Source: Candidatus Gaiellasilicea maunaloa
Lineage (GTDB): Bacteria; Actinomycetota; Thermoleophilia; Gaiellales; Gaiellaceae
Reading direction: 5' to 3'
Assembly (NCBI GenBank): GCA_024330215.1
Contig: JANDLU010000031.1
Coordinates: 1-36,340 of the forward strand
Length of the DNA stretch: 36,340 nt
The position numbers were made by a program, and so were the translations under genes. Position 1 is the first letter of the stretch. Every line of letters starts with the position of its first letter. Below the pieces are notes generated by a model. It was not told the DNA's origin and made no database searches. It saw only the letters and a program-made list of their open reading frames with translations. This document shows, piece by piece, positions 10,669 through 25,662 of this stretch.

Positions 10669-11742
10669 TTAGCAGATCCGAGGCAGCGGGTCGCCGACGA
10701 GCATGTCGACGACCCGCCTCCCGCCGAACGCGGTCTCGAGGACGACGAGCCCCGGCTGCTCCTCCCTGACGTGACCGACGACCTCGGCGTCGATCCCGAG
10801 CTTGTGCGACGCCAGCGCGGCGAAGGCGGCGGCGGCTGCCTCGGGCGCCACGACCGCCATCAGCTTCCCCTCGTTCGCGACGTAGAGCGGATCGATGCCG
10901 AGGATCTCGCAAGCGCCGTTGACCTCGGGGCGAATCGGCAGGCAGGACTCGTCGATCACGATGCCGACGTCCGCGGTGAGGGCGATCTCGTTCAGCACCG
11001 TCGCCAGCCCGCCTCGCGTCAGGTCGCGAAGGCAGCGCACGCCGTCGGTTGCGTCGAGCAGTCCGCCGACGAGCTCGGCGAGGGCGGCGGTGTCGCTCTC
11101 GAGGTCGACCTCGAGCTCGAGGTTGCCGCGGGCCACCATCACCGCCATCCCATGATCGCCGAGCGTGCCCGAGACGAGGATCTTGTCGCCGGGCCTGACG
11201 AGTGAGGGTGAGAGCTCCAGTTCCCGCTCGAGCGCTCCGACGCCGGCGGTGTTGATGTAGACGCCGTCGCCCTTGTCGCGTTCGACGACCTTCGTGTCAC
11301 CCGCGACGATCGCGACTCCGGCGGCCCGGGCGGCAGCTCCCATCGACGCGGCGATCCTCCGGAGCTCGGCCGTCGGGAAGCCCTCCTCGATGATGAAGCC
11401 TGCGGTCAGGTGCAGTGGGCGGGCGCCCAACATGGCGAGGTCGTTGACGGTGCCGTTCACCGCGAGCTCGCCGATGTCGCCTCCGGGGAAGAAGAGCGGC
11501 TTGACGACGTAGGAGTCGGTCGTCAGCGCAAACCGGATGCCGTTCTCAGTGAAGACCGCCGCGTCGGCGAGCGGAGCGAGCAGCGGGTTGCCGAGCTCCT
11601 CGAGGAAGAGCGCCTCGACGAGCACGTGGCTCGATTTGCCGCCCGCGCCGTGTGCGAGCGTGATCAGCGCGTCCGTGAGCCTCGGCTTCCTCCGTCGCCG
11701 CCGCTCGATCGTCTCGAGCACCTCTTGCTCGCGGCCGTTCAT
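10669..11742 (-). CDS. hypE: Hydrogenase maturation protein HypE
   Basis: A 357-residue AIR-synthase-like protein. AHGAGGKSS near the N-terminus and the ATP-site region NDLAMLGARP are family features, and the protein ends in PRIC, whose terminal Cys is carbamoylated by HypF and dehydrated to the thiocyanate that supplies CN to the iron. DLTRGGLATVLNEIA is also characteristic. ATG 11742 overlaps the hypD stop (ATGA). It would work in the cytosol with HypC and HypD on the Fe(CN)2CO unit of the hydrogenase encoded at 17927-21146. hypF is not in the window. Confidence 0.96.
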   Translation of the reverse strand: MNGREQEVLETIERRRRRKPRLTDALITLAHGAGGKSSHVLVEALFLEELGNPLLAPLADAAVFTENGIRFALTTDSYVVKPLFFPGGDIGELAVNGTVNDLAMLGARPLHLTAGFIIEEGFPTAELRRIAASMGAAARAAGVAIVAGDTKVVERDKGDGVYINTAGVGALERELELSPSLVRPGDKILVSGTLGDHGMAVMVARGNLELEVDLESDTAALAELVGGLLDATDGVRCLRDLTRGGLATVLNEIALTADVGIVIDESCLPIRPEVNGACEILGIDPLYVANEGKLMAVVAPEAAAAAFAALASHKLGIDAEVVGHVREEQPGLVVLETAFGGRRVVDMLVGDPLPRIC

Positions 11743-12860
11743 GTCGTCAGCGGCTCGAGACGGCGCGAGAAGCGGCCGTAGTTGTAGTAGGCGGCGCAGG
11801 CGCCCTCGCTCGAGACCATGCAGGTGCCGATCGGCTTCTCCGGCGTGCAAGCAGTGCCGAAGACCTTGCACTCCCACGGCTTGATCACGCCCTTGAGAAC
11901 CTCGCCGCACTGACAGGCCTTCGGGTCGGCGACGCGCACCCCGGGAACGTCGTAGAGCAGCTCGGCGTCCCAGTCGGCGAAGTCGTCCCGCAGCTTCAGG
12001 GCGCTCTGCGAGATGAAGCCGAGGCCGCGCCATTCGAAGGTCGTCCGGAGCTCCATGGTCTCGGCGATCGCCTCGAGCGCCCGCGCGTTCCCGCTCTCTC
12101 GAACGACACGTGAGTACTGGTTCTCGATCTCGGAACGCCCTTCTGCGAGCTGCACCATGACCATGTACGCCGCCTGGAGCACGTCGAGCGGCTCGAAGCC
12201 GGCGACGACGAGCGGCTTGCCGTGGTCTCGGGCGATGAACCGGTACGGCACCGTCCCGATCACGGTCGAGACGTGGCCGGGGCCGATGAAGCCGTCGAGA
12301 CGGAGGTCAGGCGAAGCAAGGATCGCGCGGATCGCCGGGATGATCGTGACGTGGTTCGCGAAGACGAAGAAGTTGCGGATCCCCTCGGCCCGCGCGCGAA
12401 GCAGGGTCAAGGCCGTGGACGGCGTCGTCGTCTCGAAGCCGATCGCGAAGAAGACGACTTCGCGGTCCGGGTGCTCGCGTGCGATTCGAAGTGCGTCGAG
12501 CGGCGAGTAGACCATACGCACGTCGGCGCCACGGGCCTTCGCCTCCAGCAGCGAGCCGTTGCCCCCGGGAACCCGCATCATGTCCCCGAAGGTCGTGAAG
12601 ATCACGTTTGGCCGCTCGGCGAGCGCAATCGCGTCGTCCACGCGTCCCATCGGGATCACGCAGACCGGGCAGCCGGGACCGTGGATCAGGTCGACCGCGG
12701 GCGGGAGCAGGTTCTCGACCCCGTGCTTGTAGATCGTGTGCGTATGGCCGCCGCAGACCTCCATCAGCTTGTACTGCCTGTCCGGCTCGACGAGCCCGGC
12801 GATCTGCTCCGCGAGGCGCAGTGCCAGATCGGGCGACCGATACTCGTCGACGTACCTCAC
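11739..12860 (-). CDS. hypD: Hydrogenase maturation protein HypD
   Basis: A 373-residue Fe-S scaffold protein, the usual HypD length. MEVCGGHTHTIYKHG, HGPGCPVCVIP, FAIGFETTTPSTA and GPGHVSTVIG are the family motifs, including the catalytic thiols. The C-terminal Cys set for the [4Fe-4S] cluster is visible at CQCGEVLKGV, ECKVFGTAC and GTCMVSSEGACAAYY. GTG 12860 gives the normal HypD N-terminus (VRYVDEYRSPD); the longer open frame upstream is not HypD-like. With HypC it holds the iron while CN and CO are attached. Confidence 0.96.
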   Translation of the reverse strand: MRYVDEYRSPDLALRLAEQIAGLVEPDRQYKLMEVCGGHTHTIYKHGVENLLPPAVDLIHGPGCPVCVIPMGRVDDAIALAERPNVIFTTFGDMMRVPGGNGSLLEAKARGADVRMVYSPLDALRIAREHPDREVVFFAIGFETTTPSTALTLLRARAEGIRNFFVFANHVTIIPAIRAILASPDLRLDGFIGPGHVSTVIGTVPYRFIARDHGKPLVVAGFEPLDVLQAAYMVMVQLAEGRSEIENQYSRVVRESGNARALEAIAETMELRTTFEWRGLGFISQSALKLRDDFADWDAELLYDVPGVRVADPKACQCGEVLKGVIKPWECKVFGTACTPEKPIGTCMVSSEGACAAYYNYGRFSRRLEPLTT

Positions 12861-12997
12861 GTCCCTGGCCGCCTTTCGCTCCCGCCCGGCAGAGTCGGGC
12901 TCCGCGAGGAGCTGACGTCGCTCGCGGCGCTCCAGCCGGCAGCCCGTACCTCCGTACTGTGCCGCCGGCCTACGCACCCCGAGCGACGCCCCAGGAA

Positions 12998-13013
12998 CGT
13001 GAGGAGCCTCACG
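12998..13013. repeat. Small hairpin at the end of the SIS gene
   Basis: CGTGAGG and CCTCACG pair with only AG between them, overlapping the stop codon of the SIS gene (13009-13011). It lies in the 148-base gap before hypD, the only long gap within the hyp operon, and could damp or stabilise the message there. Nothing else was seen in 12861-13008. Confidence 0.4.
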
Positions 13014-13614
13014 CCTTCGCTCCCACGACCTCGAGCAGCAAGTGGTAGACGGTGGCGTGCGCCTCCTGCACGCGTGGGACGTAGTCGCCGTCCGCGACGA
13101 GCAGATGGTCGAGCTCCAGCTCGCGAAGGCGCCCACCGTCGCCGCCCGTGATCGCGCAGGTGAGGAGAAGCTGCCGCTGGGCCTCCTCGAGGCCGGCAAG
13201 GATGTTCCGGGAGGAGCCGCTCGTCGAGATCGCGAGTGCCGCGTCGTTCCCTCGGGCGAGCGCGATCAGCTGGCGTGCGAAGACGTTCTCGAAGCCGACA
13301 TCGTTCCCGACCGCGGTGATTGTCGCGACGTCGTCGACGAGCGCGAGCGCCGGCCAGCCGAGCGCGCGGCAGTCGTGGGCGAGATCCTGGGCGTCGGTCG
13401 ACGAGCCGCCGTTCCCGAAGGTGAGCAGCCGTCCGCCGCGCTCGAGCGCGGCGCGGATCGCCTCTCCGCAGGCGACCACGGCCTCGAGGTCGATCCTGAG
13501 CCGCAGGGCGATCGTGTCGGCGCCCTTTTGCAGCGTCGAGGCTCGCACGTCGGCGAGGACGGTCGGGAGATCGGTCTCGCTGCCCTCGAGAAAGGGATAG
13601 AGGAACTCGGTCAA
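13009..13614 (-). CDS. SIS-domain phosphosugar isomerase-like protein (GmhA-like)
   Basis: A 201-residue protein of the sugar-isomerase (SIS) fold, closest in look to sedoheptulose-7-phosphate isomerase GmhA: LLTFGNGGSSTDAQDLAHDC is the phosphate-binding loop and AISTSGSSRNILAGLEEA the second SIS motif. It starts with TTG 13614, overlapping the stop of the SIS-HypC gene. No heptose or lipopolysaccharide genes are near, so a hydrogenase-linked role is more likely than LPS heptose synthesis. The substrate is unknown. It may pair with the SIS domain of the gene before it, since SIS proteins act as oligomers (inference). Confidence 0.82.
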   Translation of the reverse strand: MTEFLYPFLEGSETDLPTVLADVRASTLQKGADTIALRLRIDLEAVVACGEAIRAALERGGRLLTFGNGGSSTDAQDLAHDCRALGWPALALVDDVATITAVGNDVGFENVFARQLIALARGNDAALAISTSGSSRNILAGLEEAQRQLLLTCAITGGDGGRLRELELDHLLVADGDYVPRVQEAHATVYHLLLEVVGAKA

Positions 13615-14291
13615 TCGACCCGCTCCAGTGCGACCCCGGCGTGGCAGAGGATCGTGTCGCCGACCGTCACCCCTTCGACGAGCTCGATCGCGACCTGTTC
13701 TCGGGCGCCGTCACGCTCGATCGTCGCGGTCTGATTCGAGATCGCGACGATGCGCGCCTCGACGGCGACGTCCCCGCACGTGATGCAGGCATCGGCGAGC
13801 AGGCCAGGGTGCTCGAAGAAGACGTGAACGAGCTCCCAGAGCACGTGGTAGGCGGTCTCCTGCACCTCTTGGACGATCGCGCGGTCGTCGCTGGCGACGG
13901 AGAACGAGAAGTCGGCGTCGATCGGCTCGGGGCCGGTGAAGGCGATCGTGAGCAGGCCCGGGCGCGCCAACAGCTCCTCTACCTCGAGGTCGCGGCCGCC
14001 GTGGACGAGGCCGAGCGCGATGTCGTTCGGGCGCGCCAGCTCCGGGGCCGCCACGGCGGGAAGTGCTCGCTTGCCCACGATCACGGGGTGCATGAACTCG
14101 ACGGCGACGTGGGCTGCGTCGGTCGCTGCGGCACCGGTCCCGCACGCGACCAGGGTGCCGCCCGCCGAGAACGCCCGCGCCAGCGCGTGACACGCGAGCG
14201 CAAGCCGCTCCTGCTCCAGCTCGAGAAACGCGCTGAGCACCTGTTCGCGCTCCTCGATCTTCCTCACCAAACGCGAAGCGTTTGGCGTCAT
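13611..14291 (-). CDS. SIS domain-HypC fusion protein
   Basis: A 226-residue two-domain protein. Residues of about 1-155 form an SIS domain (GTLVACGTGAAATDAAHVAVEF, split here as GTLVACGTGA and ATDAAHVAVEF; LLTIAFTGPEPID). The end is a HypC/HupF domain: CITCGDVAVEARIVAI, then the late motif VGDTILCHAGVALERVD. In ordinary HypC the iron-binding Cys is residue 2; here the equivalent CxxC is internal, so it cannot work through a free N-terminus. ATG 14291 overlaps the hypC stop (ATGA). It is probably a specialised HypC partner or scaffold; how the SIS fold contributes is unknown. Confidence 0.8.
   Translation of the reverse strand: MTPNASRLVRKIEEREQVLSAFLELEQERLALACHALARAFSAGGTLVACGTGAAATDAAHVAVEFMHPVIVGKRALPAVAAPELARPNDIALGLVHGGRDLEVEELLARPGLLTIAFTGPEPIDADFSFSVASDDRAIVQEVQETAYHVLWELVHVFFEHPGLLADACITCGDVAVEARIVAISNQTATIERDGAREQVAIELVEGVTVGDTILCHAGVALERVD
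14267..14285 (-). repeat. Hairpin just inside the SIS-HypC coding start
   Basis: CCAAACGC and GCGTTTGG are perfect 8-bp arms with a 3-base loop. In the mRNA the stem begins three bases after the ATG at 14289-14291, a position where structure often lowers initiation. It could tune SIS-HypC output relative to HypC. Confidence 0.5.
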
Positions 14292-14566
14292 TCGATCGAG
14301 CTCGCGTGCAGCTCTCTCAGCTCCTCCTCGTAAGCGGCGCCGAGCTGTTCGAGGAACTCCCGCGTCGCCTGCGCCTCCGCCTCGTCGATCTTCGACATCG
14401 CAAAGCCGACGTGAATCAGGACCCAGTCGCCGATTCCGACCGCGTCTGGGCCATTGGCCAGCAGGGCGACGTTGACGTTCCGCCGGACGCCCGACACCTC
14501 GACCTTCGCGATATGGTGCTTGGGATCGACGACGTCGACGATCTGGCCGGGAATCCCGAGGCACAT
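14288..14566 (-). CDS. hypC: Hydrogenase maturation chaperone HypC
   Basis: A 92-residue HypC/HybG protein. MCLGIPGQIVDVV has the essential Cys2, and GDWVLIHVGFAMSKIDEAEA is the family C-terminal motif. It carries the iron with HypD and then delivers it to the large subunit. The C-terminus has an extra acidic helix (EFLEQLGAAYEEELREL). It follows the small membrane-protein gene by one base and overlaps the SIS-HypC gene by four. Confidence 0.95.
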   Translation of the reverse strand: MCLGIPGQIVDVVDPKHHIAKVEVSGVRRNVNVALLANGPDAVGIGDWVLIHVGFAMSKIDEAEAQATREFLEQLGAAYEEELRELHASSIE

Positions 14567-22498: not shown

Positions 22499-23667
22499 GG
22501 CTCCTCCAGCTCGGCGGCGATGCGGCGGAAGATCTCCTCGAGACGCAGGAGCTGCGGAACGTGGAACCGTCCGGCGGCCCGAGAGACGTCGGCGCGAAAG
22601 TGCTCTTTGACCGCGGTCTCGCGCGACCCTAGCGCTTCGAGCGCAGAGCGGATGAGCAACTCGATGCGCTCCGGCGGCAGTTCGAGTAGACCCCCGAGCC
22701 AGGCTTCGGCGCGCTCGACGCTCGAGTCGTCGATCCAGGCGGCGGCGTCCACTCGGCGGACGTCCGGAGGGGCCTCGGCGGAGCGCGCCAGCTCCTCGCG
22801 GACGATCCCCTCCCAACTCGCCTGCGCTTCCTGTTCCAGAACCCGCAGGAGGTCGTGTGCCGTCGCCTCGCCGATACGCGCGAGCACCGCCGCAGCCTGC
22901 GCGGCCACCGGCGCGGGCGGATCGGCTACCCCGAGGGCCTGCCGTGCCGACAGACGGGCCCTCGGCGCGTCGCCGTGCTGCTCGTAGGCGAGTGACAGGT
23001 TGGCCTTCGCCATCGCGAACTCCGCGGGGCGAACGGCCCGTGGGTGGGCGCCGGCCGCCTGGCGGAACGACCCGATCGCCTCCTCCGCCGCTCCGGCGGC
23101 GAGCCGGGCAAGTCCGAGCGCGTTCAGGGCGCCGCCGTAACCGGTCGCGTCGCCCCGCTCGGCCAGCTCGACCGCCCGCTCGAGCGTGCGCATCGCCTCG
23201 TCGAGCTCGCCGAGCGCGAGCAGCGTGGCGCCGAGCTCGCGCGCGGCGGCAGCCTCCGGTCCACCAGTCAGCAACGCTGCAGCGCGCCGGAAGCACTCGG
23301 CGGCCGCTGCCGGGTCGCGCTCGCGGCGGACGAGACCGAGATTGAAGAACGCGGCTCCGTGCTCCTGCTCGAGGCTCGAGCGCTCGAAGAGCTCGGCCGC
23401 TCGTTCGAACGAAGCCTCCGCCTGCTCGAGCTCACCCGCGAGTCGCTGCGCAGCACCCAGTGCGTTCAGCGCCTTCGCATGCTCCACCGGCAGCGCGTCG
23501 GGATCGAACAGCTCGGCTGCGCTCGCAAGCGATTCGATCGCCTCCGCCACGCGTCCCGCGTCCGCCAGGACAACGCCCAGGTGGAACCGCGTCGTCGCGT
23601 GCTGAACCGGGTACCGGGCCGGGTCGTAGCGGGCGAGTCGCTGCTCGAGCTCCAGGATCGGCTCCAT
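22489..23667 (-). CDS. TPR-repeat protein of the hydrogenase locus
   Basis: A 392-residue protein. About six tetratricopeptide-like repeats fill the first 250 residues (for example ALNALGAAQRLAGELEQAEA and AAFFNLGLVRRERDPAAAAE). A separate helical C-terminal domain follows (AAAWIDDSSVERAEAWLGGL onward, ending RRIAAELEEPWS). No signal peptide is seen. TPR proteins are docking scaffolds; coupling to the ligase-like gene (10-base overlap) suggests the two work together, perhaps on hydrogenase assembly. Its ATG is only 20 bases from the divergent endopeptidase start. Confidence 0.8.
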   Translation of the reverse strand: MEPILELEQRLARYDPARYPVQHATTRFHLGVVLADAGRVAEAIESLASAAELFDPDALPVEHAKALNALGAAQRLAGELEQAEASFERAAELFERSSLEQEHGAAFFNLGLVRRERDPAAAAECFRRAAALLTGGPEAAAARELGATLLALGELDEAMRTLERAVELAERGDATGYGGALNALGLARLAAGAAEEAIGSFRQAAGAHPRAVRPAEFAMAKANLSLAYEQHGDAPRARLSARQALGVADPPAPVAAQAAAVLARIGEATAHDLLRVLEQEAQASWEGIVREELARSAEAPPDVRRVDAAAWIDDSSVERAEAWLGGLLELPPERIELLIRSALEALGSRETAVKEHFRADVSRAAGRFHVPQLLRLEEIFRRIAAELEEPWS

Positions 23668-24180: not shown

Positions 24181-24933
24181 ATGAAGCTCGCGGTCGCAGG
24201 CAAGGGTGGTTCCGGGAAGACGTCGATCTCGGGAACGATGGCGCGCCTGCTGGCCCGCGACGGCCGCAAGGTGCTCGCGATCGACGGGGACTCGAGCCCG
24301 AACCTCGCGCTCACGCTCGGGATTCCGCAGGCGCAGATGAGCGCGATGCCGACGCTCCCTCGGGATCTGCTCGATCGCTCGAACGGCGGCGCGGTGCTGA
24401 CGAAGACGCTGGAGGAGATCTGCGCCTCGCACTCGGTTCAGGGCCCCGACGGCGTCACCCTACTCGTGATGGCGCACCCGCAGCACGCGGGGACCGGGTG
24501 ACTGTGCGGCATGCACGCTACCGTGCGTAGCGTCATCGAGACCGCCCCAGCCGAGGACGTCTGCATCCTCGACACGGAGGCTTCGCCGGAGCATCTGTCG
24601 CGCGGAACGGCGCGCTACGCGGACGGACTGCTCGCGGTGGTCGAGCCGTACTTCAAGTCGCTCGAGACCGGCCGCCGGATGGCCGCGCTCGCGAACGATC
24701 TTGGGCTCGAGCGCGTGTCGCTCGTGGCGAACAAGATCCGGGACGAGCGGGATCTTGCCGCGGTGACGGAGTTCGCCGCGCAGCACAGGCTCGAGCTCGC
24801 AGGCGTGATCCCGTTCGACGACCAGCTTTCGGGGGCCGAGCGCGCCGGTGTGGCGCCGCTCGACTTCGACCCGGACTCGCCCGCCGTCGAGGCGATCGGC
24901 AAGCTCGGCCGCGACTTCGTGGGGACTCGGTGA
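24181..24933 (+). CDS. CooC-like nickel-insertion ATPase with in-frame UGA (possible selenocysteine)
   Basis: Reading through one UGA (24499-24501) gives a continuous 250-codon SIMIBI ATPase. GKGGSGKTS (residues 7-15) is the deviant Walker A motif, VLAIDGDSSPNL the switch region and CILDTEASPEHLSRG the Walker B region. UGA is codon 107, in HAGTG-UGA-LCGMHATVR, where CooC-type proteins carry the CxC that binds metal between two subunits (near residue 112-114 in the CO-dehydrogenase protein, as I recall). Hence U-L-C may replace C-L-C. A hairpin with SECIS-like spacing follows. Otherwise it is a point-mutated pseudogene or a sequencing error. It could supply nickel in place of HypB (inference). 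Confidence 0.8.
24515..24533 (+). promoter_or_regulatory. SECIS-like hairpin after the in-frame UGA
   Basis: ACGCTAC (24515-24521) and GTAGCGT (24527-24533) pair perfectly around the loop CGTGC. The loop begins 21 bases after the UGA and has a G in its first two positions. As I recall, bacterial SECIS models want 16-37 bases to the loop and such a G. It also codes for protein, so chance is possible. Confidence 0.4.
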
Positions 24934-25289
24934 GCGAGCTCGACGCGTTGAGAGTTCGGGAGGAGGTGCTCCAGGCGATGTATTGGATGCGCTCGGAAGG
25001 CCTCGGCGAGACACCGTCGGCGGCGGAGCTGGCGCGCTTTCTCGCCGTACCCGCGGCGACGCTCGGGCCGTATCTCGAACGGTTCGTCGACGAGGGCTAT
25101 CTCGAGCGCTCGGGCGAGGACTTCGGCCTGACGGAGCTCGGGATCGAGTCGGGCAAGCGCACCTTCGCGGAGGAGTTCGCCGACCTCACCCGGCCCGGTC
25201 ACGGCGAGTGCGACGCCGACTGCTGGTGTCACGACTCGCCCGAGGAGGCGGCTCGCTGCCTCGACGAGCGAGTGCAGCATGCGCATTGA
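24930..25289 (+). CDS. Winged-helix protein with Cys/His-rich C-terminus
   Basis: A 119-residue protein. The first 70 residues look like a MarR/DtxR-type winged helix (VREEVLQAMYWMRSEGLGET, AAELARFLAVPAATLGPYLE, DEGYLER, LTELGIESGK). The end is metal-binding in appearance: HGECDADCWCHDSPEEAARC holds five Cys/His in 15 residues, with more His at the very end. GTG 24930 overlaps the stop of the CooC-like gene (GTGA). It is likely a metal-sensing regulator or a small metal carrier acting with the ATPase; which one cannot be told. Confidence 0.7.
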   Translation: MSELDALRVREEVLQAMYWMRSEGLGETPSAAELARFLAVPAATLGPYLERFVDEGYLERSGEDFGLTELGIESGKRTFAEEFADLTRPGHGECDADCWCHDSPEEAARCLDERVQHAH

Positions 25290-25662
25290 GGACGAGGCTC
25301 CCGCGCTCCCAAAGAGCTTCCTCCGCCCCTGTCTGCTCTTGCTCCTGCGCGAGCAGCCGGCCCACGGTTACGAGCTCCTCGAGCGTCTGCGCCCTCTCGG
25401 CTTCGCCGGCGACGATCCCGGAGGTCTCTATCGCGCACTTCGTGCGCTCGAGCGTGATGGGCTCGTCCACTCCGCCTGGGAAGCGTCGCAGGCAGGCCCG
25501 AACAGGCGGATCTACCAACTCACGCGGACAGGGATGGAGGAGCTACACCGGCGATCGAAGGCCCTAGCCCGTGCCCGGTCGACGCTCGAGGTCTTCCTCA
25601 GCCGCTACGGCGAGTTCGTCGCGCTCGACGCCGGCGAGTCCGTCTCCCGCGCCACGCGCTAG
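25279..25662 (+). CDS. PadR-family transcriptional regulator
   Basis: A 127-residue winged-helix regulator. LLLLLREQPAHGYELLERL, PGGLYRALRALERDGLV and RRIYQLTRTGMEEL are the PadR motifs, followed by a dimerisation helix. It overlaps the Cys/His winged-helix gene by 11 bases and so belongs to the same transcript. Its ligand and target are unknown; it may control the hydrogenase accessory genes or the neighbouring ABC importer. Confidence 0.9.
   Translation: MRIEDEAPALPKSFLRPCLLLLLREQPAHGYELLERLRPLGFAGDDPGGLYRALRALERDGLVHSAWEASQAGPNRRIYQLTRTGMEELHRRSKALARARSTLEVFLSRYGEFVALDAGESVSRATR

Follow-up and report, generated by a model that had tools for sequence, protein, structure and literature searches.

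A CooC-type ATPase with a conserved in-frame UGA, very likely read as selenocysteine, in a [NiFe]-hydrogenase neighbourhood

An ATPase gene continues past an in-frame UGA

The window, that is, the whole 36,340-nucleotide stretch of Candidatus Gaiellasilicea maunaloa DNA analysed here, carries a plus-strand frame at 24181-24933 whose sole internal stop is a TGA at codon 107 (24499-24501), ahead of the terminal TGA at 24931-24933. This raises the question of whether the gene is broken at this codon or whether the UGA is read as selenocysteine (Sec), and what a Sec-containing protein of this kind would do. We found that the read-through product, here called SelCooC, is a SIMIBI ATPase of 250 amino acids with a Pfam match to CbiA, in which residue 107 (U) lies in a G-U-L-C motif and takes the first Cys position of a CxC metal motif. 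When dN/dS was calculated against the window gene (Nei-Gojobori), the values ranged from 0.06 to 0.34 upstream of the UGA and from 0.07 to 0.32 beyond it, indicating that purifying selection is equal on both sides and that coding continues past the UGA. The GTG start of a 119-amino-acid gene overlaps the SelCooC stop (GTGA overlap), and we infer that ribosomes reach this gene because its start lies inside that stop.

The UGA column and its hairpin are conserved in relatives

The UGA column was compared across 399 genomes of the class and 70 fetched loci. In close relatives the codon there is TGA, TGC or TGT. At 45% identity or more, TGA was present in 25 distinct sequences, some of which are no more than about 50% identical, and Cys in 19 distinct sequences. 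A quick tree, with paralogues included and with the C-x-U form L042_8369 labelled Cys from its first position, required four or more switches between Sec and Cys on branches with good support.

Downstream of the UGA, a perfect 7-bp stem ACGCUAC/GUAGCGU (24515-24521 and 24527-24533) closes a CGUGC loop, forming a hairpin at 24515-24533 on the plus strand; the stem begins 13 nt and the apical loop 20 nt after the UGA. The published bacterial SECIS (bSECIS) model calls for a loop of 3-9 nt whose first or second base is G, a stem of 4-16 bp, a distance of 16-37 nt from the UGA and an energy of -7.5 kcal/mol or lower (PMC13188914). The window hairpin, with its 5-nt loop, G in second place, 7-bp stem, 20-nt distance and -8.5 kcal/mol, meets this model. 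Folded alone, it did not stand out from shuffled versions (z -0.22), and single-sequence folding was therefore discarded as evidence.

The evidence for the hairpin is instead comparative. It was retained in all 25 distinct UGA homologues and not in the Cys homologues, and its energy was -8.0 or below in 24 of the 25 (L027, -4.4). The core GCUAC..GUAGC is frozen in the UGA forms: the codons GCT, CGT and AGC occur in 24, 25 and 24 of the 25 UGA sequences, respectively, whereas the Cys forms carry them in only 2, 1 and 1 of 19. Because the stem is nearly invariant, covariation is limited to one compensatory pair, a U-A to C-G change on both stem sides in L037, and the frozen codons, set against the Cys forms, provide the stronger test. 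One Cys form, L116, retains CGT AGC, and judging by this remnant its lineage may possibly have lost Sec.

In three Sec forms (L117:1501-2253, L118:1501-2253 and L134:4805-5538) the second motif Cys is Gly (U-L-G), so the U-x-C pair is not universal among Sec members. These forms resemble a Cys clade with C-L-G or C-M-G (L032-L035, L044).

The genome encodes the machinery for selenocysteine

In the window's own genome (G000), SelA (E 9e-128) and SelB (E 5e-98) adjoin each other on contig C123, and SelD lies on contig C58 (E 2e-101). A tRNA-Sec gene with anticodon UCA sits at the end of C123 (L081:1-85) and scored above the Rfam gathering threshold; it is truncated at its 3′ end by the contig end, which is why ARAGORN missed it. 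SelA was present in all 12 UGA genomes with assemblies of 200 contigs or fewer, and in 14 of 18 UGA genomes overall; among the 381 other genomes, 177 had it (Fisher p 0.014). The four UGA genomes showing no SelA (G303, G179, G235 and G381) are 74-91% complete in 290-490 contigs, and SelB over the cut-off was also absent from these four fragmented assemblies.

We consider it very likely that UGA 107 is translated as Sec and that SelCooC, with Sec at a cysteine position of CooC, is a new kind of selenoprotein; there are no protein data, and actual Sec incorporation remains inferred. The original prediction, made from the sequence alone, had described one SIMIBI ATPase interrupted only by UGA at codon 107, at the first Cys of a CooC-type CxC, with a 7-bp stem and 5-base loop starting 13 bases downstream that fit the SECIS spacing rule. 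All of these claims held, the last of them against the published bSECIS model, and the homologue column that it proposed to inspect has UGA in 25 distinct relatives and Cys in others. It had named a lack of Sec machinery and a decayed downstream half as refuters; the selA, selB, selC and selD genes are present, and the downstream half shows no decay, its dN/dS being similar to that found upstream. Its observation is thus confirmed and its reading largely right, as no testable refuter holds.

SelCooC resembles CooC in sequence and predicted fold

The best solved relative of SelCooC by sequence was CooC (3kje, E 6e-29, phmmer against PDB), and U107 and C109 aligned with Cys112 and Cys114 of CooC, which bind metal between two subunits, with one Ni bound per dimer (PMC6006190). 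SelCooC has the deviant Walker A KGGxGKT, the MinD/SIMIBI fold and the CxC motif (as U-L-C) of a CooC protein. An AlphaFold2 monomer model built on 38 relatives reached pLDDT 90.5 and pTM 0.89, with low confidence at residues 102-105, the loop before U107; its closest PDB fold was CooC1, and a continuous CooC fold is predicted by this model. TIGR00073 (HypB) was not among the NCBIfam matches of SelCooC.

SelCooC thus shares with CooC (PDB 3kje/3kjg/3kji) the deviant Walker A, the SIMIBI fold and a CxC aligned residue for residue. It differs in having Sec as the first Cys and in sitting beside a hydrogenase. No CooS was found in any of the 26 genomes with the ATPase, and we therefore class SelCooC as CooC-type and not as a CO dehydrogenase (CODH) factor. 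A role in CO dehydrogenase maturation was rejected on the same ground.

The gene is linked to a [NiFe]-hydrogenase

On the plus strand, the window encodes the [NiFe]-hydrogenase small subunit (17927-19246), the large subunit (19245-21146; nearest solved relative HofG, 5aa5), a second hydrogenase maturation protease-like protein (21187-21675) and a hydrogenase maturation protease (TIGR00072; 23682-24164). SelCooC is followed on the same strand by the 119-amino-acid Cys-rich protein (24930-25289) and a PadR-family regulator (25279-25662), both of them conserved neighbours. The minus strand carries HypE (10669-11733), HypD (11739-12953), GmhA-like SIS-domain proteins within the hyp cluster (13009-14288), HypC (14288-14566) and a TPR protein conserved in many relatives (22489-23667).

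Cys-bearing Acidimicrobiales (L038-L041) are among the many relatives that share this gene order, which makes the hydrogenase link independent of Sec. A [NiFe] large subunit was present in 23 of the 26 genomes with the ATPase, and the most constant neighbours of the ATPase were the 119-amino-acid and PadR-like genes. The 119-amino-acid protein has no Pfam or NCBIfam match, and could conceivably be a metal-binding partner. It ends in the C-terminal run CDADCWCHDSPEEAARC and usually lies directly 3′ of the ATPase.

The window large subunit carries the motifs SSRACGVCGGVH and SFDPCMPCTTH. The other large subunit of this genome, on C133 beside HypA/HypB, has TSRICGICGDNH and SFDPCLPCGVH, and these are the motifs of group 1h (PMC5364354); because its motifs differ, the window large subunit probably belongs to another subgroup than 1h. 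Groups 1l and 1h have both been described in Thermoleophilia-rich desert soils (PMC8528921), and that the window hydrogenase is group 1l is a possibility that we offer only as a guess. It is related to the hydrogenases with which aerobic soil bacteria subsist on trace hydrogen.

Two further frames lie within this region: a transposase-like gene (15702-16919), which separates the hypC side from the hydrogenase structural genes, and a minus-strand open frame (21797-22489) between the protease and TPR genes, whose product by eye resembles a biotin/lipoate-ligase-type domain.

A proposed role in nickel delivery

Among the 26 genomes with the ATPase, neither HypA nor HypB was found over the cut-off in 12 hydrogenase-bearing genomes (G079, G223, G162, G179, G003, G351, G393, G226, G124, G306, G298 and G332). 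HypF was over the cut-off in 10 of these 12; G223 has part of HypF and G162 none. The maturation step that these 12 lack is that of nickel. The hydrogenase and hyp linkage, the absence of CODH and these HypA/HypB-less genomes led us to propose a nickel-delivery role. We think it likely that CooC-type ATPases deliver nickel to the window-type hydrogenase, although this is inferred without metal data.

In the proposed mechanism, UGA 107 would be read as Sec by SelA, SelB, SelD and tRNA-Sec, with the closely following hairpin as the signal. On the CooC model, two SelCooC subunits would dimerize on nucleotide, and one Ni(II) may be held between the two U-L-C motifs by two selenolates and two thiolates; both the dimer and the identity of the metal are inferred. 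ATP hydrolysis would then pass the metal on to the large subunit of the [NiFe]-hydrogenase encoded nearby, so that SelCooC may do the job done elsewhere by HypA/HypB, a replacement that is likewise inferred. The explanation as a whole, a Sec-containing CooC-type ATPase serving nickel delivery to a hydrogenase, appears likely in the absence of protein or metal data. The original prediction had proposed a U-x-C metal site in a hydrogenase nickel-insertion ATPase; the hydrogenase link held through the conserved neighbourhoods, and nickel binding and insertion remain inference.

In G124, a HypB-like N-terminal fragment (G124:C4:85064-85273, profile 2-70) adjoins hypF, without a full HypB in that genome; it might be a relic of a lost hypB.

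Alternative explanations

The alternative that survives best is that SelCooC is a genuine selenoprotein with a job other than hydrogenase nickel delivery, such as handling another metal, redox sensing or regulation with PadR. In its favour, no neighbours are more constant than the 119-amino-acid and PadR-like genes, HypA and HypB are present in the window's own genome on C133, and nickel binding by SelCooC itself is inferred. Against it stand the linkage to the hydrogenase, the proteases and HypC/D/E, the failure to find CODH, and the 12 hydrogenase-bearing genomes in which HypA/HypB were not found. We regard this alternative as unlikely.

Alternatively, the UGA might be recoded as cysteine, by a tRNA-Cys with a UCA anticodon, or as another residue. 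Relatives have Cys at the same site, and opal tRNA-Cys exist in some bacteria. However, SelA, SelB, SelD and a tRNA-Sec-type gene are present, and the bSECIS-type hairpin goes with UGA only, so that this alternative is very unlikely.

The plain alternative of the original prediction was a base-call error or a TGC-to-TGA mutation, taken here as a recent nonsense change in a gene that is decaying. The codon is one base from TGC and the window genome is a 200-contig assembly, but the same UGA occurs in 25 distinct sequences from independent genomes, some only about 50% identical, and purifying selection on the intact downstream half matches that on the upstream half; this contradicts the alternative and all but excludes it. 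Two separate proteins, a 106-amino-acid N-terminal half and a second half from the ATG at 24511, where an open reading frame does exist, are also all but excluded, as 8 of the 25 UGA sequences have Leu (CTG, CTC, CTT) or Ser in place of this Met, the Cys relatives are single chains and a continuous CooC fold is predicted.

Relation to known systems

The preferred reading, a Sec-containing CooC-type ATPase serving a hydrogenase, can be compared with known systems. HypB/HypA, including the ATPase-type HypB of Thermococcus kodakarensis (PDB 3vx3, 5aun), share with it the proposed NTP-driven nickel insertion into [NiFe]-hydrogenase, whereas SelCooC is closest to CooC, has Sec at the proposed metal site and, in 12 genomes, is without a HypA partner that could be found. 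In T. kodakarensis, an ATPase of the ParA/MinD class replaces the GTPase form of HypB (PMC9164220, PMC12134894), and by analogy this offers a precedent for ATPase-driven nickel delivery to hydrogenase (PMC9164220). The CobW-related selenoprotein (NF041053; PMC13188914) is likewise a Sec-containing P-loop NTPase of the metallochaperone kind, but its motif is UxxC; it is a G3E GTPase of another branch. Sec and nickel are also linked in the [NiFeSe]-hydrogenase large subunit, where the selenocysteine belongs to the enzyme itself; in the window system the enzyme retains Cys, and it is the maturation factor that carries Sec.

No CooC/MinD-type ATPase is listed among the 119 prokaryotic selenoprotein families of the 2026 catalogue, whose nearest entry is the CobW-related protein, and no NCBIfam selenoprotein model (June 2026) matched SelCooC. 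No Sec-containing CooC or CooC-like hydrogenase maturation factor was found in the literature searched, which left out subscription papers and preprints, so an earlier report is possible. Selenoproteins known so far are mostly regarded as redox enzymes; in the present case, Sec seems to belong to an ATPase that passes on a metal, beside a hydrogenase. Ordinary gene calling will truncate genes of this type at the UGA.

A paralogue probably forms a second selenocysteine family

A CooC-type paralogue, whose best match is also CooC, has CxCC in its Cys forms and, in other genomes, CxUC (G298, G306 twice and G393) or UxUC (G079 and G235). All six Sec paralogues carry the hairpin GAGC-AGUU-GCUC with the codons GAG CAG TTG CTC frozen, and this exact run is absent from the eight Cys paralogue forms listed. 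In G079, the paralogue comes after hypE with one further CooC-like gene between. It was not found in the window's genome, where, as in every genome, only the six best candidates were scored.

The selenoprotein catalogue likely gains at least one family, and probably two. A bolder reading, which seems to us as apt to fail as to hold, is a HypA/HypB-independent nickel insertion for an aerobic [NiFe]-hydrogenase lineage, with two or three CooC-type ATPases, selenolates as nickel ligands and one paralogue with a double-selenocysteine site (U-x-U-C). For hydrogenases without HypA/HypB, SelCooC offers a testable answer to the question of nickel supply.

The double-UGA paralogues (L128:391-1092 in G079 and L027:1032-1733 in G235) contain a pair of in-frame UGAs spaced two codons apart (U-T-U-C-G) and share one SECIS-like hairpin, both UGAs lying 16-37 nt from its loop.
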